Source: a virus
Reading direction: 5' to 3' (one strand)
DNA length: 58,493 bases
IMG/VR virus record: IMGVR_UViG_3300043449_000801
Span: 1 to 58,493 of that record
This document shows, piece by piece, positions 2,005 to 53,658 of this stretch (position 1 is the stretch's first letter; each line of letters starts with the position of its first letter). The translations under genes were made by a program, and so were the position numbers. A model generated the notes under the pieces. It saw only the letters and a program-made list of their open reading frames with translations. It was not told where the DNA came from and made no database searches.

Positions 2005-4395
2005 ATGATAACGTTATTTAGAGATTTAAAACAAACAGATAGTCCTTACTACCTTCCGGTAGAGAAGGTGTTGGACAGAATAAAGAACGGTAACTCACGA
2101 GAACTGTGTGAGAAGATTCGCATGTACGAAGGTGCTGACAACAAATCCAAGCGTAACGAACTAAAGAAGCTACTACCTGCTATTTGTTTTAGTGGAAAGT
2201 TCATTAACCGAAGCAAGCAAGGAATCGTAGAACACAGCGGTCTGATATGCATAGACTTCGATGGATTCTTAGATGAGTGGAGCATGCTTGACTACAAGGC
2301 GTTCCTAATCAATGACGAGTACTCATACGCTGTGTTTGTTAGCCCATCTGGAGATGGTTTGAAGGTGCTAGTAAAGATACCACCAAGCATCGACAACCAT
2401 GTGAACTTCTTCCTGTCACTTAAAAGATACTACAACGTACCTGAGTTCGATTCTACCACTAAGGATATCAGCAGGGTATGCTTTGAGTCATGGGATCCAG
2501 ACCTATACATTAATGAGAACAGCACACTATGGGAAGACCTCACAGAGGAAGAACACCTAGTGTATGACACGAAGACTAGCCGTAGTACTATACGATTGAC
2601 AAACCACGAAGAGATTGTGCGTAGACTACTTGTATGGTGGGAGCGTGACTTCGGAATGGTGCAGGGACAGAAGAACAATAACCTGTTCATCTTAGCTGCT
2701 GCGCTTAATGACTTCGGTGTATCAGAGAGCGATGCACGACAAGTGTTGCTGTCATATGACGAGGGAGGAAAGGAGCGCGAGATTCTTAACATCCTACGCA
2801 GTGCATACAAGAACGTATCTGCACACGGAACGAAGTTCTATGAGGACAATAGCCGGACAGACAGCATCCGTACTATGGCCAAGCAAGGTGTGCCACTTGG
2901 GGAAATCATGAGCCGTAACGCATCTATTAGTCAGGATGTTATTAAGAGTATTACTCAGGATGCCAACGACAATGACGTTACTATCTTCTGGTCGAAGAAT
3001 ACTAGAGGAAACGTGGTGCATATCAACCACTTATATAAGGAATACCTAGAGTACATGGGGTATGGTAAGTACTACGTTGAGAATGGTAACACGTTCGTGT
3101 TTGTGCAGGTGGGTAATAACATCATCTCAGACGCATATGATACTACCATCAAGGACGCGGTACTGAATGACTACTTGTATAAACTAGAGGATAAGAGTAT
3201 CTACAACTACTTCGCTGATAAGAAGGGCCTATTCAAGGAAGACCACCTATCGTTCCTTAACACCATTAAGCCTAACATTATGGTAGACAATGCACATACA
3301 GCATACCTGTACTATCGTAACTGTATGGTCAAGGTGACAGCCAACGATGTAGAGATTATGGATTACAGCGACATCGATGGATACATATGGGAGAAGCAGA
3401 TAATCAACAGAGACTTTGTCAAGGCTGACTATGAGAACGCTGTGTATAAGAAGTTCATAGCCAACATCGGAGGGAAGGACGACATAAGGATACGATCAAT
3501 CGAATCGACAGCAGGATACCTTATGCATAGCTACAAGCCACCAAGCTATGCTCCAGCTGTAATCATTAACGATGAAGTAATCAGCGACAATCCGGAGGGA
3601 GGAACAGGTAAGGGTATCTTTGTTAATAGTCTAGGCCACATGAAGAGATGCGTGACTATAGACGGTAAGTCGTTTACATTTAACAAGTCGTTTCCTTATC
3701 AGACAGTGTCGGCAGATACTCAGTTGTTGGTGTTTGATGACGTTAGCCGGTACTTTGACTTCGAGAAGCTGTTCTCTATCATTACGGAAGGGATAACGCT
3801 TGAGAAGAAGAATAAGGATGCAATTAAGATACCTTTTGAGAAGAGTCCTAAGATTATTATCACAACAAACTATGCGATTAAAGGTGCAGGTAATTCGTTT
3901 GAGAGACGTAAGTGGGAGCTAGAGTTCGCACAGCACTATCATAAGGGCTTTACTCCAGAGCATGAGTTTGGGCATCAGTTGTTCACAGAGTGGGACAAAG
4001 ATGAGTGGGCTAGGTTCGACAACTACATGATTGCTAACCTACAGCTATACCTTCGTAATGGTCTACAGGAGAGTCAGTTCAAGAACCTTCGCGAGCGGAA
4101 GTTTATCGCTGAGACATCTATGGACTTCTATGAGTGGTGTAAGGATAGGTTCAACGTGATGACTAAGAACGGATCCGAGACGTTAGGCATAGACCTACAT
4201 CGTAGCTTTGTGTTACAGAACCCTGACTACAGCGAGAGAGGTAAGTACTGTATACCTCTTGCTAGGTTCTACAGATGGATAGACCTTTGGGGAGAGTTCC
4301 AATTCAATCAACGTCCGGTAACGTTTAGGAGTAGTAATGGTAAGATGATTAGGTTTGAGATGAAGCCTGATGAACAGGGTGAACTAAATTTTTGA
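2005..4395 (+). CDS. Primase-polymerase / superfamily 3 helicase fusion
   Basis: A 796-residue replication protein. The N-terminal domain resembles BT4734/VirE-N archaeo-eukaryotic primases: a hydrophobic strand with DFD at about residues 84-86 and SPSGDG at about 113-118. The C-terminal third has an SF3-type ATPase: Walker A GGTGKG near residue 532, Walker B LLVFDDV, and a sensor-like IIITTNYA followed by an arginine-containing FERRKWEL. This architecture primes and unwinds DNA, as in P4 alpha-like proteins. The gene starts after a terminator and is 3 bases from the methyltransferase gene. No DNA polymerase gene follows, so host polymerase is probably used. Confidence 0.85.
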   Translation: MITLFRDLKQTDSPYYLPVEKVLDRIKNGNSRELCEKIRMYEGADNKSKRNELKKLLPAICFSGKFINRSKQGIVEHSGLICIDFDGFLDEWSMLDYKAFLINDEYSYAVFVSPSGDGLKVLVKIPPSIDNHVNFFLSLKRYYNVPEFDSTTKDISRVCFESWDPDLYINENSTLWEDLTEEEHLVYDTKTSRSTIRLTNHEEIVRRLLVWWERDFGMVQGQKNNNLFILAAALNDFGVSESDARQVLLSYDEGGKEREILNILRSAYKNVSAHGTKFYEDNSRTDSIRTMAKQGVPLGEIMSRNASISQDVIKSITQDANDNDVTIFWSKNTRGNVVHINHLYKEYLEYMGYGKYYVENGNTFVFVQVGNNIISDAYDTTIKDAVLNDYLYKLEDKSIYNYFADKKGLFKEDHLSFLNTIKPNIMVDNAHTAYLYYRNCMVKVTANDVEIMDYSDIDGYIWEKQIINRDFVKADYENAVYKKFIANIGGKDDIRIRSIESTAGYLMHSYKPPSYAPAVIINDEVISDNPEGGTGKGIFVNSLGHMKRCVTIDGKSFTFNKSFPYQTVSADTQLLVFDDVSRYFDFEKLFSIITEGITLEKKNKDAIKIPFEKSPKIIITTNYAIKGAGNSFERRKWELEFAQHYHKGFTPEHEFGHQLFTEWDKDEWARFDNYMIANLQLYLRNGLQESQFKNLRERKFIAETSMDFYEWCKDRFNVMTKNGSETLGIDLHRSFVLQNPDYSERGKYCIPLARFYRWIDLWGEFQFNQRPVTFRSSNGKMIRFEMKPDEQGELNF

Positions 4396-4398
4396 TTT

Positions 4399-5862
4399 AT
4401 GATTAAAGTAGGAAGTGATTTTAGCGGAGTGGGTGCATTCAATCAGGCACTAATGAGATTAGGAGTTGAGTATACTGAGTTGTTCGCATGTGACATGGAT
4501 AAGTATGCTAGGCAAACATTCATTCATAACTATGGAGAGCCTGCATACTATCCAACAAACGTATATGATAGAGAGATACCAACTGAATCATTGGATATTT
4601 ACATGACATCACCTCCATGCCAGGCCTTTAGTTTAGCTGGCAAGCGATTAGGCAAGGACGATAAACGAGGTATATTGTTCTTTAATTCGCATGAATTTAT
4701 TAAGGAAAACAAACCAAGGTATTTCATATTTGAGAATGTCAAAGGATTGTTGTCTGATGATGGAGGTAAGACCTTTAGTGAATGGTGTAATATGTTAGGT
4801 GGTAAATCAGTCAATGGTAATCCTGTAATATTTCCATACGAAGAAAGCGTACCTTATCATATCTATTGGAAGGTATTGAATGCAAAGCATCACGGAGTAC
4901 CACAGAACAGGGAGCGTGTGTTTATAATTGGCATTCGTGATGATGAGGATAACACATTTAGATGGCCTGTTGAGGAGCATTTGACTAAGCGATTGAATGA
5001 TGTGTTACAGGAGGATGTGGATGATAAGTATTTTTTGAGTGAAAATACTGTCAACAAACTTGTGGAGTATGATAAAAAACAAAAAGAAAACGGCAATGGA
5101 TTTGGAGCAAAATTTCATAATTCTACAGATGTAATGTCCGCATTGAAAGTTGGTGGGGGTGGTTGTGATGACCTTGTTAAAATCAAATCAGCCACATCAA
5201 AAGGATATGAGGAGGCAACTGAAGGTGATAGTATAAACTTCAGCGTTCCTAATTCAGAAACAAGGAGAGGTCGTGTTGGTAAAGGTGTAGCTCAAACATT
5301 GGACACGGCTTGTAATCAAGGGGTGATGATAGGCGCATTTAGAGGTAGAAATCCTGACAATCCATCAGACAGAACAACAGGAGTACCAACGGAACAAAGA
5401 CTTGAAATAAACAATCAAGGAACAAGCAACACCATTACATCTGTGCAGAAGGATAATGTTGTTATTCAAGTAGGAGACTATCGAAAAGATGAAGGATATG
5501 AGGAGGCAACTGAAGGAGATAGTATAAACTTCAGCGTTCCTAATTCAGAAACAAGGAGGGGCAGGGTAGGTAAAGGTGTAGCTCAAACATTAGATACAGC
5601 TTGTAATCAGGCAATAATACATAATTGCATAACAGAAGCAATAGGTAGACAAGGTTCATCAATGGAATATATCGATTCTTGTAAAAAAGTTTATAAATCA
5701 ACACACCAAATACGCAGGCTAACACCAAGAGAATGTTTCCGCCTCATGGATTTCCCTGATACGTTTACATGGCCTGTATCAGACAGCCAAGCATACAAGC
5801 AGGCAGGGAATTCGATTGTGGTAAATGTACTTTATAAAATACTTAAGAACCTGAGCCTATGA
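4399..5862 (+). CDS. C5-cytosine DNA methyltransferase with internal duplication
   Basis: A 487-residue enzyme expected to methylate cytosine C5 using S-adenosylmethionine. Motif I DFSGVGAF (residues 7-14), catalytic motif IV SPPCQAFS (about 71-78, nucleophile Cys), motif VI ENVKGL, motif VIII QNRERV and C-terminal motif X AYKQAGNSIVVNVL are all present in order. The target-recognition region is enlarged: a segment of about 39 residues starting GYEEATEGDS and ending DTACNQ is present twice (bases about 5200-5320 and 5493-5612), separated by about 58 residues. Likely role is self-protection from host restriction. It overlaps the SF2 helicase gene by 4 bases. Confidence 0.9.
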   Translation: MIKVGSDFSGVGAFNQALMRLGVEYTELFACDMDKYARQTFIHNYGEPAYYPTNVYDREIPTESLDIYMTSPPCQAFSLAGKRLGKDDKRGILFFNSHEFIKENKPRYFIFENVKGLLSDDGGKTFSEWCNMLGGKSVNGNPVIFPYEESVPYHIYWKVLNAKHHGVPQNRERVFIIGIRDDEDNTFRWPVEEHLTKRLNDVLQEDVDDKYFLSENTVNKLVEYDKKQKENGNGFGAKFHNSTDVMSALKVGGGGCDDLVKIKSATSKGYEEATEGDSINFSVPNSETRRGRVGKGVAQTLDTACNQGVMIGAFRGRNPDNPSDRTTGVPTEQRLEINNQGTSNTITSVQKDNVVIQVGDYRKDEGYEEATEGDSINFSVPNSETRRGRVGKGVAQTLDTACNQAIIHNCITEAIGRQGSSMEYIDSCKKVYKSTHQIRRLTPRECFRLMDFPDTFTWPVSDSQAYKQAGNSIVVNVLYKILKNLSL

Positions 5863-10019: not shown

Positions 10020-13000
10020 TTACTTTCCATATTTGCTGTAGTAAATTTGAAATGCTTTATCAGATACTTTTTCACCTGATAACCCCATTATTTCTTGTAA
10101 GTAAGCCATTTCATCTCCACTCATTTTAGGACCAAACTCCATGTACAGCTTGTATGCTTGAACCTCTGGTACAGTTTCATATACGATATCTAACATTCCC
10201 TTATTTAAGTTTCTATTGCGAATGTATGTGTCATACTTTCTAACGTATTTCTCAACATCCTGTCCTTCAAAGTTATCTGTAATAATATCTGTCAATTCAC
10301 CGTATGACATCTCTTTTCCTGAATCGTAAACCTTATTGATTTTATTGTATATACTTTGTTCTTTCATCCATATTTCAGACTCAATACTAGTCTCCATATC
10401 TTTCATTTTGTCTTGTCTAACAAAACTTAATATGTCTGGATCCGTATACTTTACTAATTTATTTCCAGCAGACTCAATCATCAAGTTACCACATGCCTTT
10501 ATATCTTCTACAAAACCTGTTGCTCCGAACATGCCATTCATTGCTGCATATGCAATGTGGACCATTGGATTAGTAGAAGGAGATGTAATTATTTTCTCTA
10601 TGGCTACCTTTGTTTTTGCAGGAGACATTTTAAAAGCAGGAGCAATTACTTTATAAAACTCTTCTATTTTATTATCGTAAACACCTTGATACTCTTCTTT
10701 TATTTTTTTATCCCTTGGCTGCTTGAATATTTCTTTACCTGTAAATGTATCTATGTTATATGATAAAGCTATATATGCTGCTACGCCTGGATTTTTACCA
10801 GCTAATTCAGTAGGCCATATTGGCATTGATTTTTTAAATGTTTCATACATTAAACCTGTATCTACATTGTAATCACTACCACCCATTTCAAAAAACATTT
10901 TGTATGCATACTGTTCTATTATAGTAGTAAGTATAGATACAACAGGTAATTTTTTAATCTTCGCATATTGAAGATTTCCATCTTTATCTTTTTTACCTGT
11001 AAATACTACGTGATATCCAGCTTTTGTATGTGCAGGAACTGAATCAAGGGCATCTTTTAGCTTTCTCATTTTCTCCTCTTCATCATCTCCATCGATTGCT
11101 GATAATGCAACTGCTAATGAATAATATGCCATACCTCCAGTTGCTAATGCAACTTGCGACATACTAACTCCAAATGCAATTGGATTTTCTTTAGCAAACT
11201 TAAGAGACTTTCTAACACCTTGTGTTGAAGCATTCAAATAAGGCATTACAGGATCAATTGCTTTTATGGTGCTTCCTCCTTGACTAAAGTCAACAAGCTC
11301 CCTAGCTTCTCTAGCTGCATCCCACATAATATCATCAAGTGCCTGTCCTGTTGGCTCTTGACCGTTATTTTCTTTTTTGTATTTAGCAATAAGATTATTT
11401 TTTTGTTTAGAATATACAGCAATTCTCATCGCGAATTCAGACTTTGTACCTAAATAAGACATACATGCGCCAACTGCTAAGAATGGTTTTGCTACATATG
11501 ATTTAATAGAACCTGCACTAAGCATAGATTTTATTCCTACTATTCCATCTTGTGAAAGAAAATCAATAGCTCCACCATGCTCAACATACTCTCTATATAG
11601 TTTATTTTCATATTCTTCATTCATTATTGATCTAATGTCATCATAGATACCACGAATAAATTTCATTGAGAACCCAGTAGTTGCTTGAACTATTGCTAGA
11701 GGTTTAAACCAACTATAAACATTTGTTAGAAACGTAGCATTGAATATATCTACAGGAACGTTACCTATGATAAACAATGGGTTACCAACGGTTGCCATAT
11801 ATCTAAGTATACCTACTCCTGTAAATTGACCTACTTTTCTCATTTTGTTGTTTAATTCAACATTCTTTATATCAAGTATTTGATTAGCGTACATTGAATC
11901 AACAACCATTATCCTTTGTTGTCCATTAACAAAGTAAGTTATTGGAGTAAATCCTACCAACTCTGCTTTTTGATTAGGACCTGAGAAATCCCCTAGTTCA
12001 TACTTTTGTACAGGTCTACCATCTTTAGTTGTTTTTACTATCGGGTTTTCCTTTATATATTTTGATATGGCATCCTTTTCTTCTTGTGTAGCTGTTTCAA
12101 TTGCTTCTGCCCAAGCTACTAACATATCATTCTCAAATGCCCTTGCAGCTACCGTATGAATGTTCATCATTAGTAACCACCTAGAGTCCATGATTATATC
12201 ATTCTCGTTTTTGTCAGATAATGCTTGGATATCTTTTCTACTTACACCTAATGTAGAGGCTTGGCTATCTGCATTACCAGGATTAGCATTATCACCAATA
12301 ATATACTTAATGACTTTTATTGGAGAGTATTCTCTATCCTTAAATCTTAAATATGTTTCTTCATTTATACGACCAGATTCAAACAGAATTCTTAGGTTAT
12401 CATTAAACTCTAAGAAGTATCGTTTTGCTCTTTTGTTTAAATTATCAAAATTATTTTCTCCTATACTTTCTCTAATTCGATTTAAGTCAGCCATAGCATT
12501 GGCTTCATTATATCCATTTATACCTGTGTAGGGGGGTTTACCCTCGTTTCTTCTATTAACATTAATATCAATAATACGTCTAGCATAAATTATTTGATTT
12601 AATATTTCCAAAGACTTAGAGTCTAGTCCTCCGTACACTACTCTATCTATACGCTTAAACCTATAAGATGCGAATCCTGTTGCTCCAGCTTTAGTAATAA
12701 GCATATTAAAAGCTCGTTTGGCAGCATCATTCTTGATGCCTTTCATTAATCGCTTAATACCCTCTTGACGATCAAATATTGCTTTGTTTGCATATCGATA
12801 CGCCCTAACAAATATATTAGCATCGTATCTTCTTTTTAATGCATCTTGACTTTGCTTGTAAATTTCTTCAACAGTAATATCTTTAGCAGGCTTCATCTGA
12901 GTCATTGCCTGAATAATATCTGCATCACTAAATCCATTGTTTCTAAGGTATACCTCTATAGCATCGTCCTTAATATCATTAGCCCTAGCAGTAGCAACAA

Positions 13001-16000
13001 TGTAATCAATGTTGTTTTGCTTAGAGAATAATACTTGTAGAGACTTTATATTATCTGTTGTTATTTCTTTTCCTCCAAGTAAAGACGCTAGTGATCCATC
13101 AACAAATTGATTTAATGACAATTTTTGGAACTCTTCTGGAGACAAATTCTCAAATGCTTTGAACTTAGATTTAACATAATTGAATACGGCATTCAACCAA
13201 TTCTTAAATTTTGATTTTGTTCCGGCTTCAATTAAAAGTTCTCCACGACTTGCAATCAAATCGGCCATTGCTTCTTCTCTTGCTAATTCGTTATCTCCAA
13301 GCTCTTTAATTTTTTGCTTGAGTATAGATGTTCCTTCCAAGAGATCAAATCCCTTTTGTAATAATCCTGGATTATTTGCTCTTAAGAAGTTCATCCATAT
13401 GTGAGAGAACTCGTGTATGGCTGTATTAGAATTAGCCTTCTCAGGATTCAAGAATATTTTTCCATCAGTTGTAAATCCATATACTACTTCTCCATCCTTT
13501 ACAAATTGTTTTACATTAGGATCTTGTAAAGCAGCATCAAAATCTTCTTGAGTATCTACTATAGTAACTGTAGGAAAAGCTAACTTAAGCTTGGCTATTA
13601 ATTTTTGTAGTTCAGTCATCTTGTCAGATAACTTAGCTCCTACAAACGCTTTAGTTGTAGCTATAGCTCCAGAAACAGCGATTGATTGACTTATTGCTGA
13701 ACTTACACTAGGTAACTCACCACTTGTATTAGGTTTAAGCATAGCAAATGTTTTGCTATACATTTCAGGAAATACATCGGCAGCATGAACAGGATTCTCA
13801 AGAATACCTATTAGCTGTCCTTTCATACCAAAAGGATAATTACCATGAACCAATTCTCCTTTAGCAGCAGATGTAACACCTCCATTCAATACATCTATAC
13901 CCACGATAGCAATAACATGGTTAGGTGGAATTTTACTACTTGCTTCTTCTTGAATTATATTATTCAATGTTTGAAGGTGTATGTATTTATAGAATTCACT
14001 TCCTTTATTTCCAACTAATGCTAAACCAGCTTTACTTCTAGGTTCTCCAGGTTTTGTTTCTTTATCTAATTCAATTCCACCTGTAAATAAGAAATCTGTA
14101 ACTATCAATCTTTTACCTATTGGTCTTAACTTAGACATGTTATCTAAAAGCTCATCAATAGTTTTAAAGTTGTTTTCTTTAATGAATTTTATAACTACAT
14201 TTTCTTGTATTTCCTTTTTATATATTTGATTTGCTTCTTTCTCACTTAATAATTTTTTGCCTTCTTTTTTTCTTTTATTATTTTTAGATTTTACAGGTTT
14301 AGAAGCGATATCATCTATTAAACCGTTTAAAGAATCTGTCCTTTCTTTTTTATTAAAATTGCTTTTAATAGTATCAGATGCTAATCTAAATAGTGCCTCA
14401 TTTGTTTTTATTGATGCTTGACCCATTTTAACAACAGCCATAGGAATATGACCATTTGGAAGTTTTCCTTCAGCCCAAAGCCTATCAAATAAAGACTTGT
14501 TTTTATTATATATTTCTAATGCTCTTTTATATGTGTCCTTACTTGATTTTAAATCAGTATTTGCCCATGCATTATTTTCATTACCATCTGTCAGATTAAA
14601 TCCAAGCCCACCATTTATATCAATAGTATTTCCTGTGAATGGATTACTAACAGAACCAGATGAAAGCTGATCAGATATAGTGAATATAAAAGGAATACCA
14701 TTGTATTCAGAAATATTTTTTATTACACCTTTATTCCAAGCTGCCTTAAGTTTATTGCCAAATCTAGATATCAATGATTTGATATTGATTTTGTTTTTGG
14801 TAGTTAAATTAGATGGAACATCAAACTCAGCAAATTCTTCAGGAAGCTGATTCATTTCATCTGTTACTTCTTCTACATCTCCTGCATCTATTGCATTCTG
14901 TGGCTCCTGTTTTTCCTTCTTAAACTTAGGCGGAGTCTTACCAAGTAATGCATCAAGTTTAGCAACATCTGCATCAATATCCTCCTTAGTCCTAGGCTTT
15001 TCTTCCGTAGTTACTTCTTCTTCTGGAGCAACCTCTTCTTCTGCAACTACTTCAGCCTCTACAGGTTGGGCTGCTGCTGTGGGTTCAGCTGTAGGTTGTT
15101 CTCCTGCTGGTTCAACTGCTGCTGCTGTTGGTTGGGTTGCTGTTGGTTCAACTGTTGGTTGAGCTTGTACAGGTACTTCAACTGCTGCCGTTTCGACAGG
15201 AGCTGTAACTTCTGGAAGTTGGATAGACTCTGTTGCTGCTTGGAATTCTTCATCTTGTTCTAATAAATCGTTTATAAATTGCTGTTGTTCAGGCGTCTGT
15301 ATCTTTTGCAATTCAATTTGATATGCAATATCTACAGCATCCTGTCCGGTAAACATTTGAGTTTGTCCTGCATCATTTTTCAATGACACATTCATTACTT
15401 CTCCTGCCGGATTATATTCAATACCTTGAGTAGGTAGTTCCATCTGCATGTTCCAATTGTTTCCGTCAATTGAAACTTGACCTTGTGGAGTTACAGAAAC
15501 TCTTTCTTCTTGTACCTCAAGACCTGGAAGTTCAGAGTTCATCACCTCATCTACATTTCCAAGCTCGTATATCTTTCCAGAATCTCTGTCTTCAAATACT
15601 ACTTGCTGCCCTTCAACATAAACATCACCTGATAATGGAGCATCTAATTTAGCTCCTCCAAATGAAGTTAATGTAGCAGGTCTATTTATTACTTCAGAAA
15701 CAACTACTCTAGGTGTTTCTGTTGCTACTACTTCTTCCTCCCTGATGTCTTGCCCACCTTCTTGGGTAGTGACTTGAGGTTCTGCTTGGGGTACTCCTTG
15801 CGCCATTTCTCCGCTAACTTCGGCTTTTGGCTGAACAGGTACTTCACTTGTTGTTTGCTCTTGAACGGCATTTTCTGAAATTTTTATAAGTTCAACATTA
15901 ATTTCTGCAATCCTTCTCCTTTGAGGTGTGGCAAGACTTTCATCTTTATTCGCTATATATTTCTCTAAGTTAGCTTTTTCTGTCATTAAATCAAGTGCTA

Positions 16001-18986
16001 CAGACTTATCTTCTACACTCATATTATCAGGCATAGAATTAATCCTTCCTTGAATATCTTTAAATGAGTTAGAAATTTCTTTAGCTTGCTCCTTAGTATA
16101 CTTGCCACTAATTATACCTGCCTTAAGATTAGCCAATAGAGCTTGATCAATATTCTCCATCTTGGCGGCATTCATTAATACCTCAAGTTGTTCCTTATTT
16201 AAATTCTCTCTAAACTTATTTCCTGTTATTGTACTAGCAGTTGTAACCGTACTCATGATACCACCACCTAATGCACCTAGGTATCCTTCATACAATACAT
16301 CTGCATATATTTCTTTTGCGCTCTTATTGTTAAAGTAATCAGAGCCAACCATTCCGTCATATACCTCCTGTATTCCAATCTTTGATACAGCTTGAGTCAT
16401 CTCAGTTAATCCCTCACCTGCGCCTCCAATCAAGGCATCCATAGGTAAAGTGGCAAACATTTTCTTTGTGCTATTGACAATAGCTGCTTGAATAAATTCC
16501 TTTGATGCATTCTCAGGAATATCCATAAAGGCATCCTTAATAACAGCATGAGTTATTTGTCTTCCAAGACCTGTTTTTTGTAGTGCTAAGTCTAAACCAA
16601 ATTTTTCAAGTATTGAACTTACAATACCATATGTTCCAGCCATTAATACCTTAGATGTTTCTGATGGTCCAGCACCACTAGGATCTTTAATCATATCAAG
16701 CTCATCCTTCATCTCATTGTATGACTGAGCAAAGAATGATGCATATGTAGCAGGCCCTCCACCCATAGCAAGACCTGTAGTTAATGCTCCAAGTGATTCA
16801 CCTAAACTAAATATTGCCTTAGTAACATCGCTTCTATTTTTAGAGTTCATATACTCCTCTGTAGTATAATCTCCAGTAATAAAATTAATGATACTTTCTT
16901 GTTCTTTTTTAGTTAACATTCCTAATCTAGGTAATGCTGTTAATCCTTTAATATATTTTTTAGAAATACCACCAATGAAAGTACCTCTTGCTTCATTAAC
17001 AATATATTCAGCTGCAATTGATTCGTCTATTGATTTAGTAATAGTTCCTAGATATTTAGTCTCATCTTTTAAATCAACCCCCATTTGTTTTATTTCACCT
17101 TGGAGTTGTTCCATTTTAGGCTTATACTGTTCGTTGAACTCCTCTTCACTTATCTTTCCTGATCTGATTCGCTCATTTGCATCATCAGCATAAATCTGAA
17201 GAAGCTTCATTTTTGCATTATAATTTTGAAATGACTTATTTATATCATCTGCAAACTTACTTGCGTTACCTATTGTCTCTTTGTCATTAGGAAGATATGC
17301 AACCATATTTTCCACCTCTTTATCATCGTATGGATTCTTTCCGGTTTCAATTGCTTTCTTCTGCTTGTAGTATATATCACGAAGAACTAAATAAGATTCT
17401 CTAGCATATTCTTTACGAGCTAGTCTTTCTTTCTCTTCTAATTTAAACTTATCTTCTTTTGTAACATTAATAATTTTATCTAAAACCATTGGTTGTTGAT
17501 CTGGAAGTCTATCATCTATATATTCAGGATCGCTATATATAGCTCTTCGATACTTATAGTTAGGACCAACCCAAGCACTATTTTCTTTTTCAGCTATTTC
17601 AAGTGACTTAGATGCATCAGCTAAATCTTTACTAGAATTTACTTTAATAAATTGACGCAGTCTTCTTGCCTCTTCGCTATCTCCTGCATCTGTCCAGTTA
17701 TCAAGACTGATTTTAATTGTATTCTTCCCATCTGGTGAAACCACTTCTATAGCATCACCAAACATGTCAGATATGGTATCATAAGTTCTTCCAAAAGAAA
17801 ACGTAGGGAACTTAGCTTTAAGTTTCTTAATTACTACATCTTCTTCATTGCCTATAAGTGATGAATTAACTGATAACAAGTTTGTGTCAAACTCTTTCTT
17901 TTTAATTAACTCTACATCCTCAGCAACACCTGAAAACTTGTCTCGTGCAGCATCGTATTTTATCTGCTTATTGAATTGAGCATTCAATGCATCAATTGAA
18001 CCCTTTGAAGTAATCCTAAAGAAATCACTGTATCCTTTAGGACGCTTTTCCCAATAAGGTTCGTTTGTTGCTTTATCTACACCTATTCTATACTCAACGT
18101 CATCCTTTCCTGGATATCCTACATATGTTTGTTCAATCGTACTAGATGATGCATTCTGATTAAACATTTTGTTTAATGTAGCTACCCTCTTAGGATCCTT
18201 TACCTGTTTGTAATCAAATACGTATCCTGTCTTTCCTGTCTTTTCATTTTTATATGTAAGTGGCTTTCCGTTTTGATATTGAATTACACTTTCATTCCAA
18301 ACAGGTATGCCTGATTCAGTATAAACTAATTCATATTCTTTATCTGTTTTACCAGGTATAGTATATTTCTTAGGAGCTTCATACTTTTCTGCCTTTGGTT
18401 TTGTTTCTCCTGCAAGAACTTTACCTGCGCCTACTACAGCTTCAGTTATTTCTTTATTTATTTTTTGAGATACGCCTTCAGGAACAGTTGATTTTACAGT
18501 TGTAAATTCCTTAGTCTTAACAGGAGTGTATGTCTTGGCATATTTCTCTAGTGCAGAAATTCTACTTTTTTCGTTTATCTTAACGTAATTTCCTGTTTCA
18601 CCTAAATCAATATACCACTGATTATTTGTCTTCTTGTATACTGCATCTTCCCTTCCTGGATACCGATATGATCCACTAGGTTTAACAATAGACTCAACAG
18701 CCTTTTGTACTCCTGCACTAACTGCCTTCGACAACGCACCCGAAGAAGAAGGTTTTGCTGCCCCACTTCCAGGAGATGCCGTAGTGACTTTTTTTTTTGG
18801 TGGTTGAATGAATGCTGAACTAAAAGTATTAAAGTCAGTTGTTTGAAATATCTTAGCTTGTCTTCCTAAGTTATATAACTTCTTTATCTGATCTCCACTA
18901 GCTGATTTAAATGTGTTAAAGTCTGTGCTTTGTATTAAGCCAGATTGAACATACAAATCATACAGTTTCTTTAGTTTATCATTCAT
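10020..18986 (-). CDS. Giant polyvalent virion (ejection) protein with zincin protease motif
   Basis: A 2988-residue protein, last in the late operon. The N-terminus has two copies of a KLY(D/N)L...TTDFNTF motif (residues about 7-25 and 34-52), then three modules with YPG(R/K)xDxxY...W. Hydrophobic glycine-rich stretches lie near 730-760, 850-910 and 2600-2640. A Pro/Thr/Glu/Ala-rich linker covers about 1250-1370. A zincin motif HEFSH near residue 1857, preceded by DGKIFLNPE, matches the polyvalent-protein metallopeptidase (MPTase-PolyVal). Near 2580, DPVMPYLNASTQG resembles the LPD38 polyvalent domain. Such proteins are packaged and injected with DNA. No RNA polymerase motif was found. Confidence 0.8.
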   Translation of the reverse strand: MNDKLKKLYDLYVQSGLIQSTDFNTFKSASGDQIKKLYNLGRQAKIFQTTDFNTFSSAFIQPPKKKVTTASPGSGAAKPSSSGALSKAVSAGVQKAVESIVKPSGSYRYPGREDAVYKKTNNQWYIDLGETGNYVKINEKSRISALEKYAKTYTPVKTKEFTTVKSTVPEGVSQKINKEITEAVVGAGKVLAGETKPKAEKYEAPKKYTIPGKTDKEYELVYTESGIPVWNESVIQYQNGKPLTYKNEKTGKTGYVFDYKQVKDPKRVATLNKMFNQNASSSTIEQTYVGYPGKDDVEYRIGVDKATNEPYWEKRPKGYSDFFRITSKGSIDALNAQFNKQIKYDAARDKFSGVAEDVELIKKKEFDTNLLSVNSSLIGNEEDVVIKKLKAKFPTFSFGRTYDTISDMFGDAIEVVSPDGKNTIKISLDNWTDAGDSEEARRLRQFIKVNSSKDLADASKSLEIAEKENSAWVGPNYKYRRAIYSDPEYIDDRLPDQQPMVLDKIINVTKEDKFKLEEKERLARKEYARESYLVLRDIYYKQKKAIETGKNPYDDKEVENMVAYLPNDKETIGNASKFADDINKSFQNYNAKMKLLQIYADDANERIRSGKISEEEFNEQYKPKMEQLQGEIKQMGVDLKDETKYLGTITKSIDESIAAEYIVNEARGTFIGGISKKYIKGLTALPRLGMLTKKEQESIINFITGDYTTEEYMNSKNRSDVTKAIFSLGESLGALTTGLAMGGGPATYASFFAQSYNEMKDELDMIKDPSGAGPSETSKVLMAGTYGIVSSILEKFGLDLALQKTGLGRQITHAVIKDAFMDIPENASKEFIQAAIVNSTKKMFATLPMDALIGGAGEGLTEMTQAVSKIGIQEVYDGMVGSDYFNNKSAKEIYADVLYEGYLGALGGGIMSTVTTASTITGNKFRENLNKEQLEVLMNAAKMENIDQALLANLKAGIISGKYTKEQAKEISNSFKDIQGRINSMPDNMSVEDKSVALDLMTEKANLEKYIANKDESLATPQRRRIAEINVELIKISENAVQEQTTSEVPVQPKAEVSGEMAQGVPQAEPQVTTQEGGQDIREEEVVATETPRVVVSEVINRPATLTSFGGAKLDAPLSGDVYVEGQQVVFEDRDSGKIYELGNVDEVMNSELPGLEVQEERVSVTPQGQVSIDGNNWNMQMELPTQGIEYNPAGEVMNVSLKNDAGQTQMFTGQDAVDIAYQIELQKIQTPEQQQFINDLLEQDEEFQAATESIQLPEVTAPVETAAVEVPVQAQPTVEPTATQPTAAAVEPAGEQPTAEPTAAAQPVEAEVVAEEEVAPEEEVTTEEKPRTKEDIDADVAKLDALLGKTPPKFKKEKQEPQNAIDAGDVEEVTDEMNQLPEEFAEFDVPSNLTTKNKINIKSLISRFGNKLKAAWNKGVIKNISEYNGIPFIFTISDQLSSGSVSNPFTGNTIDINGGLGFNLTDGNENNAWANTDLKSSKDTYKRALEIYNKNKSLFDRLWAEGKLPNGHIPMAVVKMGQASIKTNEALFRLASDTIKSNFNKKERTDSLNGLIDDIASKPVKSKNNKRKKEGKKLLSEKEANQIYKKEIQENVVIKFIKENNFKTIDELLDNMSKLRPIGKRLIVTDFLFTGGIELDKETKPGEPRSKAGLALVGNKGSEFYKYIHLQTLNNIIQEEASSKIPPNHVIAIVGIDVLNGGVTSAAKGELVHGNYPFGMKGQLIGILENPVHAADVFPEMYSKTFAMLKPNTSGELPSVSSAISQSIAVSGAIATTKAFVGAKLSDKMTELQKLIAKLKLAFPTVTIVDTQEDFDAALQDPNVKQFVKDGEVVYGFTTDGKIFLNPEKANSNTAIHEFSHIWMNFLRANNPGLLQKGFDLLEGTSILKQKIKELGDNELAREEAMADLIASRGELLIEAGTKSKFKNWLNAVFNYVKSKFKAFENLSPEEFQKLSLNQFVDGSLASLLGGKEITTDNIKSLQVLFSKQNNIDYIVATARANDIKDDAIEVYLRNNGFSDADIIQAMTQMKPAKDITVEEIYKQSQDALKRRYDANIFVRAYRYANKAIFDRQEGIKRLMKGIKNDAAKRAFNMLITKAGATGFASYRFKRIDRVVYGGLDSKSLEILNQIIYARRIIDINVNRRNEGKPPYTGINGYNEANAMADLNRIRESIGENNFDNLNKRAKRYFLEFNDNLRILFESGRINEETYLRFKDREYSPIKVIKYIIGDNANPGNADSQASTLGVSRKDIQALSDKNENDIIMDSRWLLMMNIHTVAARAFENDMLVAWAEAIETATQEEKDAISKYIKENPIVKTTKDGRPVQKYELGDFSGPNQKAELVGFTPITYFVNGQQRIMVVDSMYANQILDIKNVELNNKMRKVGQFTGVGILRYMATVGNPLFIIGNVPVDIFNATFLTNVYSWFKPLAIVQATTGFSMKFIRGIYDDIRSIMNEEYENKLYREYVEHGGAIDFLSQDGIVGIKSMLSAGSIKSYVAKPFLAVGACMSYLGTKSEFAMRIAVYSKQKNNLIAKYKKENNGQEPTGQALDDIMWDAAREARELVDFSQGGSTIKAIDPVMPYLNASTQGVRKSLKFAKENPIAFGVSMSQVALATGGMAYYSLAVALSAIDGDDEEEKMRKLKDALDSVPAHTKAGYHVVFTGKKDKDGNLQYAKIKKLPVVSILTTIIEQYAYKMFFEMGGSDYNVDTGLMYETFKKSMPIWPTELAGKNPGVAAYIALSYNIDTFTGKEIFKQPRDKKIKEEYQGVYDNKIEEFYKVIAPAFKMSPAKTKVAIEKIITSPSTNPMVHIAYAAMNGMFGATGFVEDIKACGNLMIESAGNKLVKYTDPDILSFVRQDKMKDMETSIESEIWMKEQSIYNKINKVYDSGKEMSYGELTDIITDNFEGQDVEKYVRKYDTYIRNRNLNKGMLDIVYETVPEVQAYKLYMEFGPKMSGDEMAYLQEIMGLSGEKVSDKAFQIYYSKYGK

Positions 18987-47901: not shown

Positions 47902-48115
47902 ATTCACCACTCCTGTAGTCGTGTCCCTGTACCGCATCGTATACGATCCTATCACCCTTCTTAATGCTTCCGTTGTGTTCGCTAGATACCACAACGATAC
48001 CCTCTTGGTATCGCTGCTTAGTAACCTCCTTCCCACTGAGCAATAGTCCGCTGCTGCTTTCCTGAACCTCAACCTTACAAGGCTCAACCAACAAAAAGTT
48101 ATTTAACGCTATCAT
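47855..48115 (-). CDS. groES: Phage co-chaperonin (GroES/Cpn10)
   Basis: An 86-residue Cpn10. A mobile-loop-like segment ESSSGLLLSGKEVTKQ is followed by the barrel signature GIVVVSSEHNGSIKKGDRIV and YRSGESMYRMIQYRDV at the C-terminus. It starts inside the GroEL end (17-base overlap), so both are made from one message. Its short C-terminus and host partner specificity are not shown; it probably caps the phage GroEL. Confidence 0.85.
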   Translation of the reverse strand: MIALNNFLLVEPCKVEVQESSSGLLLSGKEVTKQRYQEGIVVVSSEHNGSIKKGDRIVYDAVQGHDYRSGESMYRMIQYRDVALVL

Positions 48116-49688
48116 TCTCTCTTACATTAGTTATTATCGCATTGGTGCTTAGTATCGTCACAGCGACACTCACAGCGTTCATCAGCGCACTCTTAGTGAC
48201 CTTACACGGATCAATAACACCCATCTTCATCATGTTACCATACGTGCCATTCTTAACGTCATAACCAAACCAAAAGTTCTCTGCAATAACATCAGTGAAC
48301 ACGTTGTCCCATCCAAGGCCTGCGTTCGCGCAGATCTTCTTAAATGGCGCATACACCGCATTCAACAGAATGTTCTTCGCCTCAACCTGATCACTGCTGT
48401 ACGACTTTGTTGGAAGGGAGTCATCGATGTCATACATCGCACGAATCAACGCCATACCGGACCCAGGCAATACACCCTCCTCCTTGGCAGCCTTTACAGC
48501 CAACACCGCGTCATCGATCCTATCCCTCAACTCCTTCTGTTCAATGTCGCTCTGCGCTCCAACGTAAATAACACCTATGCCACCGTATATGTTGGCAATC
48601 CTTTCGTTTATGAACTGCACATCAGCCTCAGTTGTCTCCTGCTCTATGCTATCCTTAAGCTGTGCAATGTATCCCTTCAACTCAGGACTCTCTTCCGCAG
48701 GAACAATAACAGTGTTATCCTGACCAACGATTATTCTCTTCGCCTTACCAAGCCCCTCCATCGAACACAACGCTAAGTTGTCACCAGTAGACTCACTATA
48801 GTAATGCGCCCCAAGAGCTACTGCGATGTCGCGCATCATGTCATCCTTCCTATATCCGAAGTTAGGAGGCATAATGTGGCAGCAACGTATCTTGTTCTTC
48901 ACTACGTTCATGCTTAATGTCGCAAGAACCTGTGGAGATAAGTTACCGATGATCAACAACGGCTTATTGTCTCTCACTATTGGTGCGAGTATCGCCTCAA
49001 TATTAGCCAAGTTACTTATCTCAGCATCTGTCACCAATACATACGCGTCCTCTAGAACACACTCGTTCTTCTTATGGTCCGTAACAAAGTACTTCGATGT
49101 CCATCCTCGCTGAACCCTGATACCTGAGATCACTTCACTGTATGTCTTCGTAGTCTTACTGTTCTCAACAACAACGTACTCCACGTTGCTGTAAACATCA
49201 GATATTAACTTCCCAATCACAGGGTCGTTGTTCGAAGAGATAGTTGCCACATCGAGCAACACCTTCCCATTAACTCTCTTAGACTTCTTGTCAAGTACCT
49301 TACATACCTTATCAGCGATAGCCTGGATGTTACGCAGCACCTCAGTCTTGTTAGCCCATTCACCCATAGACTCAAACGAATCAATAATGGCCTTAGTCAA
49401 CACGATGCTCGTAGTTGTTCCATCACCTGCCATCGTGGCTGTCTTCGATGCTGCCTCTCTTACAAGCTGCACCGCTAGGTTCTCCACCGGATCGTACAAG
49501 TTAATCGACTTGGCTACAGTCACTCCATCCTTCGTTACAGTCACACCACCAACGTGGTTCTCTGACTCTACTAATACCGTCTGTCCGCAAGGACCTAGCG
49601 TGGATGACACCGCAGCTTCAATGATCGAGATGCCGGACTTAAGCTTATTACGCCCGTTCTCGTCTAATAATACCTGTTTAACTATCAT
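48099..49688 (-). CDS. groEL: Phage chaperonin (GroEL/Cpn60)
   Basis: A 529-residue Cpn60. Conserved elements are present: TLGPCGQTV near residue 31, KDGVTVAKSI with the ATP-associated Asp at about 54, MAGDGTTTS with the catalytic-loop Asp at about 89, LLIIGNLS in the apical domain, IERIANIYGGIGVIYVGA, and DDAVLAVKA with the Asp corresponding to E. coli D398. It lacks the GGM tail of most bacterial GroEL. It is transcribed from its own promoter and overlaps GroES. It may fold phage capsid or tail subunits. Confidence 0.9.
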   Translation of the reverse strand: MIVKQVLLDENGRNKLKSGISIIEAAVSSTLGPCGQTVLVESENHVGGVTVTKDGVTVAKSINLYDPVENLAVQLVREAASKTATMAGDGTTTSIVLTKAIIDSFESMGEWANKTEVLRNIQAIADKVCKVLDKKSKRVNGKVLLDVATISSNNDPVIGKLISDVYSNVEYVVVENSKTTKTYSEVISGIRVQRGWTSKYFVTDHKKNECVLEDAYVLVTDAEISNLANIEAILAPIVRDNKPLLIIGNLSPQVLATLSMNVVKNKIRCCHIMPPNFGYRKDDMMRDIAVALGAHYYSESTGDNLALCSMEGLGKAKRIIVGQDNTVIVPAEESPELKGYIAQLKDSIEQETTEADVQFINERIANIYGGIGVIYVGAQSDIEQKELRDRIDDAVLAVKAAKEEGVLPGSGMALIRAMYDIDDSLPTKSYSSDQVEAKNILLNAVYAPFKKICANAGLGWDNVFTDVIAENFWFGYDVKNGTYGNMMKMGVIDPCKVTKSALMNAVSVAVTILSTNAIITNVRENDSVK

Positions 49689-51393: not shown

Positions 51394-52371
51394 ATCTATT
51401 AATTTTTAGTTACAGACCTATAACGGGGCGTAAGCCCATATGTAACAACACCAATTAAAAAAAATGTTGGGAAATGACGGTCTGTGACGGTCCAGTGCTG
51501 ACTTTGTGCTGACATTTTTTGGGTTAAATGCCTACTAATGAGGGCGTTAGCCTTTTTTGTGTCAAGATTACGGCTCTGACGCGATTTTTTTTTTTTTATT
51601 TTTCTATTTTCTCTATTTTCTTATATATATATTATTTTTTTTTTTTTTCGTAATATAGTAACATCTTAACACTAAATAGAGCTAACTAACTGATAATCAA
51701 CAAATTAACCCTTTTTCAACTAAGCATTTAGGCAGCACTAAATGGCAAATCTTAACACTTTTCGACCAATCTTGACACTATCACATATGCTGGGGGAGTG
51801 GGTAATAAATACAATTCACGAGCTTTGCTCGTGGCGGAAACCGACCTAAATCAGCATGGGGGGTATGTATTTCCATAACTTTCTCCAAACTTTTTGGCGT
51901 TTTTATCTAGGTAGGTACATGCATACATAGGTAGGTCTATCATTCGTCGTGGATGCACCCCCTATAGTTGTGTTATCCTACTGGTAGTCAGGCACTTATA
52001 TTTCTATTTAACATAATAGTAGTTATAGGACATCGAGACATAACTAACTGACAATCAATTGACTATAAGAATGAACATCCCTGGACGCGTCTATATTTAC
52101 GTAGCTTTCCAATAATCGCACATGAATTCACGTGCATTATTCGTATCGATACGCATCGATTCGTATCACATTTGATTGCGTTTTGTTCGGTCCGGTTTTG
52201 CGTTTAGGAGCGCACATCTTCGGACGTTCAAAAATCACCCAACCAAATCCGAACAAAGAAACGAATCTGCGCTTTATTGAATCCCGCGCACGTAAGGAGA
52301 TGCATAACTAACTGAATATCAATAGCTTGGATGAATGTTAGTCAGATGTGGATATCTGTCGGCATAAAAAA
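51394..52371. other. Long non-coding control region
   Basis: No convincing gene. Contents in order: left iteron block (51494-51779) with a long T-rich tract and TTATATATAT; a 7-bp hairpin CACGAGCTTTGCTCGTG (51817-51833); GTAGGTA repeats near 51908-51935; an imperfect 18-base palindrome with GAATTC (52119-52136); a 12-base palindrome CGTATCGATACG (about 52142-52153); and three copies of TAACTAACTGANNATCAA at 51683, 52041 and 52305. Inverted TTTGTTCGG and CCGAACAAA lie near 52181 and 52248. Together these suggest an origin or regulatory hub. Confidence 0.6.
51494..51779. repeat. Left block of spacing-conserved inverted iterons
   Basis: Holds GTGCTGAC at 51494-51502 and GTGCTGACAT at 51506-51515, a T-rich tract with ATATATAT, TAACATCTTAACACTAAA (51659-51676), TTTTCAACTAAGCA (51713 on) with CACTAAA, and ATCTTAACACT (51749-51759) and ATCTTGACACT (51769-51779). 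A reversed copy of the iteron lies at 51559-51569. The mirror image of the whole arrangement is present at 55271-55487 with identical spacings between the main elements. Confidence 0.85.
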
Positions 52372-52706
52372 ATGTTAAAATCAAAAAAAAATTTCATCCA
52401 TAACTCTCTATTTATCAGTCAGTTAGATGTAACTACAAAAAAAAGATTAAAAAATATTGCACAAAGAATGTTACTAATTCAAAAGAAAGTAGTTATATTT
52501 ACAGAAGTGATTCAAACGAGACATCACAACGACACAAGATCTTTGACATATGTAAGTATATATCAGCAAGCGGTGCGGATGTTATATACTTTACACATTG
52601 GGTGCAACATCTAGTTCGGGATGTTGATAACACTGACTTAGTAGAACGGCATATGGGATTTTATCCGCGATATGCACAACATGGTGTAGTTAGAGTGACT
52701 AATTAA
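52372..52706 (+). pseudogene. Frameshifted or recoded small gene
   Basis: One frame starts MLKSKKNFIHNSLFISQLDV and then runs into a non-protein-like tail. From an A8G run at 52437-52445, a second frame (-1) continues with natural-looking sequence: KIFDICKYISASGADVIYFT, then HWVQHLVRDVDNTDLVERH and MGFYPRYAQHGVVRVTN, stopping at 52706. The second frame has no ATG upstream. A -1 shift on A AAA AAA would join both into about 110 residues. It could be programmed frameshifting, a decayed gene or an error in the A8 run. Confidence 0.45.
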
Positions 52707-52752
52707 TGGTAGCGATAACCACTACACCACTAACCAAATAAAACAAGTAATC

Positions 52753-52917
52753 ATGGAGTATGCATTGTTTAAAGGATTCAACAAAGTAGGTATCTTTCCT
52801 AACTACGAATCAGCAAAGAAAGCTATCAATGGAGATGGTATTTATAATATTTGCGCCATTAAAGCCATTAACGGAAAGCTAACAATATTATCAAGGGAAG
52901 CAATAAGAATAGGTTAA
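52753..52917 (+). CDS. Very small hypothetical protein
   Basis: A 54-residue protein (MEYALFKGFNKVGIFPNYES, AKKAINGDGIYNICAIKAIN). The leader CTAACCAAATAAAACAAGTAATC resembles the leaders of the next genes. Its stop codon (in GGTTAA) is the first strand of stem I of the downstream hammerhead. No family recognised. Confidence 0.6.
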   Translation: MEYALFKGFNKVGIFPNYESAKKAINGDGIYNICAIKAINGKLTILSREAIRIG

Positions 52918-52967
52918 CTGATGAGTCTTTAGTAGACGAAATGCCGTAGCAATACGGCATCTTAACC
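52912..52967 (+). ncRNA. Type I hammerhead ribozyme (HHR1)
   Basis: Stem I GGTTAA/TTAACC (52912-52917 with 52962-52967); core CTGATGA (52918-52924); stem II GTCT/AGAC with loop TTAGT; GAAA (52938-52941); stem III TGCCGTA/TACGGCA with a GCAA loop; and UC before the cleavage site after 52961. Base 52941 (A15.1) pairs with U16.1, and G10.1-C11.1 is kept. Every conserved position of the hammerhead core is present. It starts inside the stop codon of the upstream gene and leads directly into the next gene's leader. Confidence 0.92.
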
Positions 52968-52983
52968 AAATAAATCAAGTAAC

Positions 52984-53106
52984 ATGAGAGCAATCAATTT
53001 AACAGTGAACATCCTATTTGTAGGAATGGTAGTAGTAGCAATCGCATTCGCGATGTACAAAGTAATCAGTGGTGCGCCAATCGGCAGCTATACTGCAATG
53101 GGATAA
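52984..53106 (+). CDS. Tiny single-pass membrane protein
   Basis: A 40-residue protein with one hydrophobic helix (ILFVGMVVVAIAFAMYKVI) near the middle. Translation follows the ribozyme-derived leader TTAACCAAATAAATCAAGTAAC. It is the first cistron of the RNA between the two hammerhead cleavage sites. No family recognised. Confidence 0.55.
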   Translation: MRAINLTVNILFVGMVVVAIAFAMYKVISGAPIGSYTAMG

Positions 53107-53139
53107 ACAGAGTATTAATAACCAAAAAAAATCAATCAC

Positions 53140-53247
53140 ATGAGCGCAAGAATTTTAAAGATAGAAGGCCGTTACGAAGTTATCGGTTTCTTTCAAAATG
53201 ACGTACTAATTAGGACTACCAAAAGGTTAGTTACTAACTGGAAATAG
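53140..53247 (+). CDS. Tiny hypothetical protein
   Basis: A 35-residue protein (MSARILKIEGRYEVIGFFQN, DVLIRTTKRLVTNWK). Its stop TAG shares a base with the start of the second hammerhead. Second cistron of the RNA between cleavage sites. No family recognised. Confidence 0.5.
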   Translation: MSARILKIEGRYEVIGFFQNDVLIRTTKRLVTNWK

Positions 53248-53303
53248 GTTAACTGATGAGAATTTAGTATTCGAAACGGCATTCACGAGATGCCGTCTTA
53301 ACC
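53247..53303 (+). ncRNA. Type I hammerhead ribozyme (HHR2)
   Basis: Stem I GGTTAA/TTAACC (53247-53252 with 53298-53303); core CTGATGA (53253-53259); stem II GAAT/ATTC with loop TTAGT; GAAA (53273-53276); stem III CGGCAT/ATGCCG with a 7-base loop; cleavage predicted after C at 53297. Compared with HHR1, stem II and stem III pair with different bases while the core and stem I are identical, which is compensatory covariation and strong evidence that the RNA structure is selected. Confidence 0.92.
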
Positions 53304-53319
53304 AAAAAAATCAATTATT

Positions 53320-53658
53320 ATGGAAAGGAAAGAAATTATTGCAGCAATTGAGAACATGTGCAGCGAAGATTTATTCATGCTTAACAACATTTTTTGTGAT
53401 GTAATGAGCTGCTACGATGACCAAATATTTGGTAACGATGAGGAGTTTTTTAACATGTTTTTTGAGGGGAAACCAATGGAAGCCGCAAGGGCTGCCGTGT
53501 TTGGTGATTACAATTTTCATCACGAATATGTAAAGTTCAACGGATACGGAAATTTGGAAAGCTTTGATTTTATTGGTATTGAAAATCTACCTGACAGTTT
53601 GGATAGAATTGTAGATGCAATTGAAGAAAGCTTTAATGCATTTGAGGATTTATTTTAA
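53320..53658 (+). CDS. Small acidic protein
   Basis: A 112-residue, strongly acidic protein (SEDLFMLNNIFCDVMSCYDD, DRIVDAIEESFNAFEDLF). The leader follows the HHR2 cleavage product (TTAACCAAAAAAATCAATTATT). Acidic composition could fit a DNA-mimic such as an antirestriction protein, but no specific family is recognised. Confidence 0.55.
   Translation: MERKEIIAAIENMCSEDLFMLNNIFCDVMSCYDDQIFGNDEEFFNMFFEGKPMEAARAAVFGDYNFHHEYVKFNGYGNLESFDFIGIENLPDSLDRIVDAIEESFNAFEDLF

Follow-up and report, generated by a model that had tools for sequence, protein, structure and literature searches.

Type I hammerhead ribozymes between small genes of a flavobacterial phage belong to a family of probable mRNA processing sites

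The window analyzed here, one virus record of 58,493 bases, carries two sites, RZ1 and RZ2, which are confirmed from their bases and their relatives as genuine type I hammerhead ribozymes predicted to self-cleave. With a probability of roughly 0.8, we infer that both, and the sub-family to which they belong, cleave in the cell and are processing sites within polycistronic phage mRNA. Judged from the contigs scanned, this family is large, resides mainly in phage contigs and is poorly catalogued. The two sites are located within a series of small forward genes at ~52.7–55 kb of the window (Table 1).

Table 1 Features of the ribozyme-bearing gene series, in window coordinates
Feature	Position	Strand	Basis
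54-aa ORF; TAA stop (52915-52917) inside RZ1 stem I	52753..52917	+	ORF call
RZ1, A bordering stem I on the 5' side; A.A mismatch with 52968	52911..52911	+	cluster comparison
RZ1, type I hammerhead	52912..52967	+	read from bases; R1 covariance model; minimum free energy (MFE) fold is the hammerhead
RZ1 predicted cleavage site, C17/next base	52961..52962	+	H17 position after A15.1-U16.1
22-nt leader left by predicted RZ1 cleavage, ATG at 52984	52962..52983	+	bases
RZ1, A bordering stem I on the 3' side	52968..52968	+	cluster comparison
40-aa ORF directly after RZ1	52984..53106	+	ORF call
35-aa gene; TAG stop (53245-53247) shares its G with RZ2 stem I	53140..53247	+	ORF call, homologues
RZ2, A bordering stem I on the 5' side; A.A mismatch with 53304	53246..53246	+	cluster comparison
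RZ2, type I hammerhead	53247..53303	+	read from bases; R1 model; same-junction counterpart in L418
RZ2 predicted cleavage site, C17/next base	53297..53298	+	bases and structure script
22-nt leader left by predicted RZ2 cleavage, ATG at 53320	53298..53319	+	bases
RZ2, A bordering stem I on the 3' side	53304..53304	+	cluster comparison
112-aa gene directly after RZ2, phrog_4534	53320..53658	+	PHROG match

Structure and detection of RZ1 and RZ2

In 5' to 3' order, RZ1 is composed of GGTTAA / CTGATGA / GTCT-TTAGT-AGAC / GAA / ATGCCGTA-GCAA-TACGGCAT / C52961 / TTAACC, and RZ2 of GGTTAA / CTGATGA / GAAT-TTAGT-ATTC / GAA / ACGGCATT-CACGA-GATGCCGT / C53297 / TTAACC. Both thus contain the catalytic core CUGANGA...GAA, as CTGATGA and GAA, together with the A15.1-U16.1 pair and an H17 that is not G (A52941-T52960/C52961 in RZ1, A53276-T53296/C53297 in RZ2). 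Helices measure 6 bp (stem I), 4 bp (stem II) and 8 bp (stem III), the RZ2 stem III having been lengthened to 8 pairs by the structure script. Three helices meet at the core, with covariation support in RZ1, RZ2 and their relatives, and stem I is open while stems II and III are closed by loops, the arrangement of a type I hammerhead. Stem I, core and loop II are identical in the two copies, whereas stems II and III differ. The earlier note, made from the letters alone, had placed complete type I hammerheads at 52912-52967 and 53247-53303, with cut sites 3' of 52961 and 53297; the bases agree with that description, a covariance model built from relatives (R1, see below) finds both with E-values of ~1e-14, and both predicted cleavage positions are correct from the bases (C17).

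Thermodynamic modeling yielded the hammerhead fold as the MFE structure of RZ1 (-18.6 kcal/mol). Stem II of RZ2 is weak, and in a model without tertiary contacts a misfold surpasses its hammerhead fold by 0.7 kcal/mol (-15.9 versus -15.2). It is extremely improbable that both sites are mere hairpins serving as terminators, RNase sites or DNA spacers, with a core not used for catalysis. Such a role would suit a stable stem III between genes and loops that are often UUCG or GNRA, yet no terminator-like site (stem plus U run) was called at RZ1 or RZ2, and the invariant CUGANGA, GAA, A15.1-U16.1 and H17 fit catalysis, not a simple hairpin.

The bare pattern CTGATGA-N6-30-GAAA has five occurrences in the window, of which three are chance. 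Rfam returned no match in the window at gathering thresholds. At relaxed thresholds, the sole credible match was RZ1 with RAGATH-1-hammerhead (RF03152; 36.3 bits, cut-off 56.3), and RZ2 matched no Rfam hammerhead. This RZ1 match spans the full model, with which RZ1 shares type I stem order, CUGAUGA core and short stem II; in place of the 5' hairpin of RAGATH-1-hammerhead, RZ1 has only a weak 4-bp A/U stem. Hammerhead_1 (RF00163, cut-off 34 bits) describes the same ribozyme type as RZ1 and RZ2 and gave no match over 52860-53340 at E<=10, and some relatives (L011, L068, L009) reach 22.7-30.2 bits on it, all below the cut-off. Neither the window copies nor the relatives checked reach the Rfam cut-offs, so members of this sub-family are likely to go unannotated. 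R1 was built from 90 relatives, window sequence excluded, and scored 68.9 bits on RZ1 (E = 5.5e-14) and 71.1 bits on RZ2 (E = 1.6e-14), with no further match in the window at E<=10 and a next best score of 8.4 bits with filters off. The covariance-model check proposed in the earlier note therefore came out divided: Rfam has no match at gathering thresholds, while the relatives-only model finds both copies. At these model scores, a chance origin of RZ1 and RZ2 is excluded.

Covariation and the loop II rule in the family

Relatives were collected by a first scan, in which IMG/VR contigs were searched for a loose stem I-core pattern and then passed to a structure script, yielding at least 106 matches versus none in reversed sequence. 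Counts from such pattern scans are minimum values drawn from a sample biased towards the patterns used. In the resulting alignment 99.9% of cells are paired and both sides have changed in 12 of 15 pairs among the matches listed, counts that are in part circular, pairing having been a criterion of membership; a second scan was made to remove this circularity. Its only constraints were CTGATGAG, the loop TNAAT and CGAAAC, so that any sequence was allowed in stem I, in stem III and at three positions of stem II. Among the matches listed, all three free stem II positions pair in 137 of 138 unique sites, and 135 of the 138 form type I hammerheads; two of the remaining three (L295 and L246) close as type I by eye, with a bulge or a G-U pair. 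The compensatory change in stems II and III claimed in the earlier note is hence borne out, and more strongly once relatives are considered. Base pairing across these sites shows that the hammerhead structure is under selection in the family.

Clustering of the second-scan sites at 75% identity gave 117 clusters with 52 stem I sequences among the matches listed. We therefore rejected the apparent conservation of GGTTAA as a meaningful signal, since the first scan had fixed TTAA/TTAA and the diversity appeared once this constraint was dropped. Nearly all of 117 matches listed for a GGTTAA-type pattern in genome contigs were likewise dismissed as chance, and only L235, L244 and L218 are structurally valid copies among them; the GGTTAA stem I type thus looks mainly viral.

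Although the second scan left the positions flanking stem I unconstrained, stem I is exactly 6 bp long with A on both flanks in 117 of 117 clusters among the matches listed. Extended to all clusters with a 13-nt stem-loop II, which are not phylogenetically independent, a U-NNN-U loop II (mostly U-N-A-N-U in the family) is accompanied by A.A bordering a 6-bp stem I in 245 of 245 clusters among the matches listed. In 26 clusters with another loop II, the position is occupied by a seventh stem I pair (13), A.A (9) or something else (4), and a fifth stem II pair is possible in 24 of these 26 (both counts among the matches listed). Natural hammerheads require a tertiary contact between stems I and II for fast cleavage (PMC3088659), and the association of U-NNN-U with A.A suggests such a contact, in which loop II would dock onto the mismatch. 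No earlier account of this signature was found in the open papers searched. The link between loop II and A.A can be tested as a structural rule in a natural hammerhead of very small size.

Placement between stop codons and translation starts

Among the matches listed, 280 of 322 unique ribozymes with enough flanking sequence are positioned 15-45 nt upstream of a frame-opening ATG, compared with 28 of 322 when the opposite strand is tested and 18% of random same-strand positions. The predicted cut precedes the start by a median of 24 nt (quartiles 21-28; the same 280 ribozymes, among the matches listed). An upstream ORF stop is present nearby for 299, and falls inside the ribozyme in 189 and flush with it in 40, together 229 (among the matches listed); favoured positions straddle or abut the start of stem I, place TAA in stem I or use the TGA of the catalytic CUGA. 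Strands are not mixed at any of 72 multi-copy loci, and the neighboring genes are small, with medians of 79 aa downstream and 81 aa upstream (both among the matches listed). Compact phage genomes commonly have short intergenic spacing anyway, a point against the processing reading. ORF calls across the family show sense orientation and a fixed order of stop, ribozyme, leader and start.

The earlier note had also put the ribozymes between small cistrons, as both the ORFs and the family layout bear out. Its statement that each begins inside a stop codon is accurate for RZ2 (TAG 53245-53247) and does not hold for RZ1, where TAA 52915-52917 lies wholly within stem I. The close fit that it called distinctive is real, but is common to the whole phage family, and clustered hammerheads were published in 2011 (PMC3088659).

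The predicted post-cleavage leader is 52% A and contains a Shine-Dalgarno-like motif in 122 of 280 cases among the matches listed; with or without this motif, the start region would be left intact by the predicted cut. Just upstream on the + strand no sigma-70-type promoter was found, flavobacterial promoters being outside the search model. A TAACCAAAWAAAWCAA leader is common to four successive starts of the window (ATG at 52753, 52984, 53140 and 53320; 52731-53319), only two of which are preceded by a hammerhead, and TTAACC of stem I may belong to a leader that exists independently. Some leaders of L099, L011 and L235 carry a GGCGAAAGCC hairpin immediately 3' of stem I.

In the processing reading, each ribozyme would fold into three helices as RNA polymerase passes, with stem I of 6 bp, stem II of 4 bp and stem III as a hairpin. 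Loop II would dock onto the A.A mismatch closing off stem I, and the RNA would self-cleave 3' of C52961 or C53297. On the upstream mRNA the stop codon would be retained, and the folded ribozyme would form a structured 3' terminus bearing a 2',3'-cyclic phosphate; the downstream mRNA would begin with a 5'-OH and a 22-nt A-rich leader containing its complete translation start region. Each resulting mRNA would carry one gene or a few and have standard ends, and its stability and translation may be independent of those of its neighbors. RiboJ, an engineered insulator derived from the hammerhead of a plant satellite and positioned downstream of promoters, similarly has a hammerhead just 5' of the ribosome-binding region and produces a uniform short mRNA leader; unlike RiboJ, RZ1 and RZ2 are natural and lie between genes.

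A wider reading is tentative, and we lean somewhat against it: hammerheads with the A.A and U-NNN-U tertiary lock at small-gene junctions might constitute a phage-wide system yielding many standard-ended mRNAs, with terminating ribosomes as a possible gate. Gating by upstream ribosomes is conceivable since stem I or the core incorporates the stop codon; ribosomes terminating inside stem I might delay folding and so tie cleavage to translation.

Clustering of hammerheads in phages, and the idea of processing, were already published in 2011. Perreault et al. described phage and prophage hammerheads in proximity that flank single genes or short gene blocks, and proposed that they process long phage transcripts (PMC3088659). 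Three phage hammerhead arrays were shown to cleave in vitro, the Agrobacterium one also in E. coli, and a halovirus HF1/HF2 hammerhead lies 13 nt before a start codon (PMC3088659). That set comprises mixed types I-III, many with loop-loop pseudoknots (PMC3088659), in contrast to the lean type I of the RZ1/RZ2 family with its 6-bp stem I, A.A cap and U-NNN-U loop II; incorporation of the upstream stop codon into the ribozyme likewise sets the family apart from the 2011 descriptions. By the descriptions compared, the structural and positional form is new. The purpose of phage hammerheads has been in question since 2011, and the sub-family offers a clean case with uniform placement: ~300 distinct examples among the matches listed, named cultured phages with one copy (Flavobacterium elemo phages, Cellulophaga phi18:3) and precise cut-site predictions. 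If the processing reading is true, many phages appear to cut long messages into single-gene messages.

The segment between the predicted cuts (52962-53297, 336 nt) holds the 40- and 35-aa genes, and paired ribozymes could instead make circular RNA from it, re-ligated by the second ribozyme or a ligase. We consider this highly unlikely. Religation by the second ribozyme is conceivable because both copies share stem I GGUUAA/UUAACC, as do the copies of many multi-copy genomes (L058, L117, L064), and hammerhead cleavage ends (5'-OH, 2',3'-cyclic phosphate) are ligatable. Against this, circularization is unlikely as a general role because several genomes carry copies with differing stem I (6/6 in L265, 5/5 in L358, 4/4 in L318); moreover, single-copy phages exist, and Perreault et al. 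sought circular or spliced array products and found none (PMC3088659).

Distribution among phages and genomic surroundings

Copy number reaches nine in a phage record of 51 kb (G005). Single copies are present in Flavobacterium phages elemoA, C and E, Cellulophaga phage phi18:3 and Pelagibacter phages HTVC019P, Jormungand, HTVC131P and HTVC022P, and no ribozyme match was obtained in MW202828, Panino, phi13:2, phi38:1, Calle_2 or Gundel_1. This patchy distribution argues that the role is dispensable and counts against the processing reading. Two weak matches, one in VPv64 (E 0.64) and one at a second elemo site (E 0.7), were attributed to chance.

Homologues of the 35-aa gene (34-36 aa, identity 52-61%) were found in L418 and L414, and no relatives of the 54-aa ORF were found. 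In L418 the RZ2 counterpart, whose stems are nearly those of RZ2, lies between a 34-aa homologue (52% identity) and a next gene that differs from that of the window; the 40-aa ORFs of L418 and the window have no detectable similarity. In L414 the ribozyme is upstream of the homologue, not downstream. Ribozymes therefore persist at junctions while the surrounding genes change. Such persistence at an orthologous junction with a different next gene, and the reversed order in L414, could also be expected of mobile or hitch-hiking junction modules that mark small-gene swap sites, cleaving genuinely with little benefit to the phage. Patchy distribution points the same way, as does the lack of a common family among the downstream genes in a sample of 126, for which a shared function was likewise sought and none found. 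We regard such modules as unlikely, given that the narrow start-codon spacing and strict strand bias point to an expression role, and that the copies of one genome are not recent duplicates, their stems II and III being different. Processing of polycistronic messages remains our preferred reading.

Hammerheads of other kinds may be present in phage contigs of the family as well: L068 has a type III-like match at 12931-12985 (39.9 bits, cut-off 48.5), and an HH9 match (28.4 bits) at 7633-7714 of L012 overlaps a type I copy found by the structure script. Several Pelagivirus genomes, for example Pelagibacter phage KC465901 (~2945-3011; L247), have a related hammerhead in a long intergenic stretch 5' of a MarR-type regulator and an integrase. 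Neighbors of published phage hammerheads include ardA, marR and integrase, and the Pelagivirus setting recalls the marR/integrase context in Agrobacterium (PMC3088659). The annotations of elemoC and elemoE place a small antisense ORF over the ribozyme.

The capsid protein, portal and terminase of the window match PHROG head/packaging families. The closest relative of capsid and terminase is podovirus MW202828, followed by Maribacter, Flavobacterium (Elemovirus) and Cellulophaga phages, with capsid identities of 48-59% among the records listed; the host group is flavobacteria. Approximately 1.3 kb without convincing genes (51400-52740), possibly a control region or origin, separates a reverse structural module from the small forward genes. 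The window phage also encodes a C5-cytosine DNA methylase (4399-5862, PF00145), in whose sequence a ~40-aa segment (GYEEATEGDSINFSVPNSETRRGRVGKGVAQTLDTACNQ) occurs twice, and a Cpn60/GroEL-type chaperonin (48099-49688; PF00118, E 9e-52). A single reverse-strand ORF of 2988 aa spans 10020-18986, with no Pfam match for its last 826 codons.
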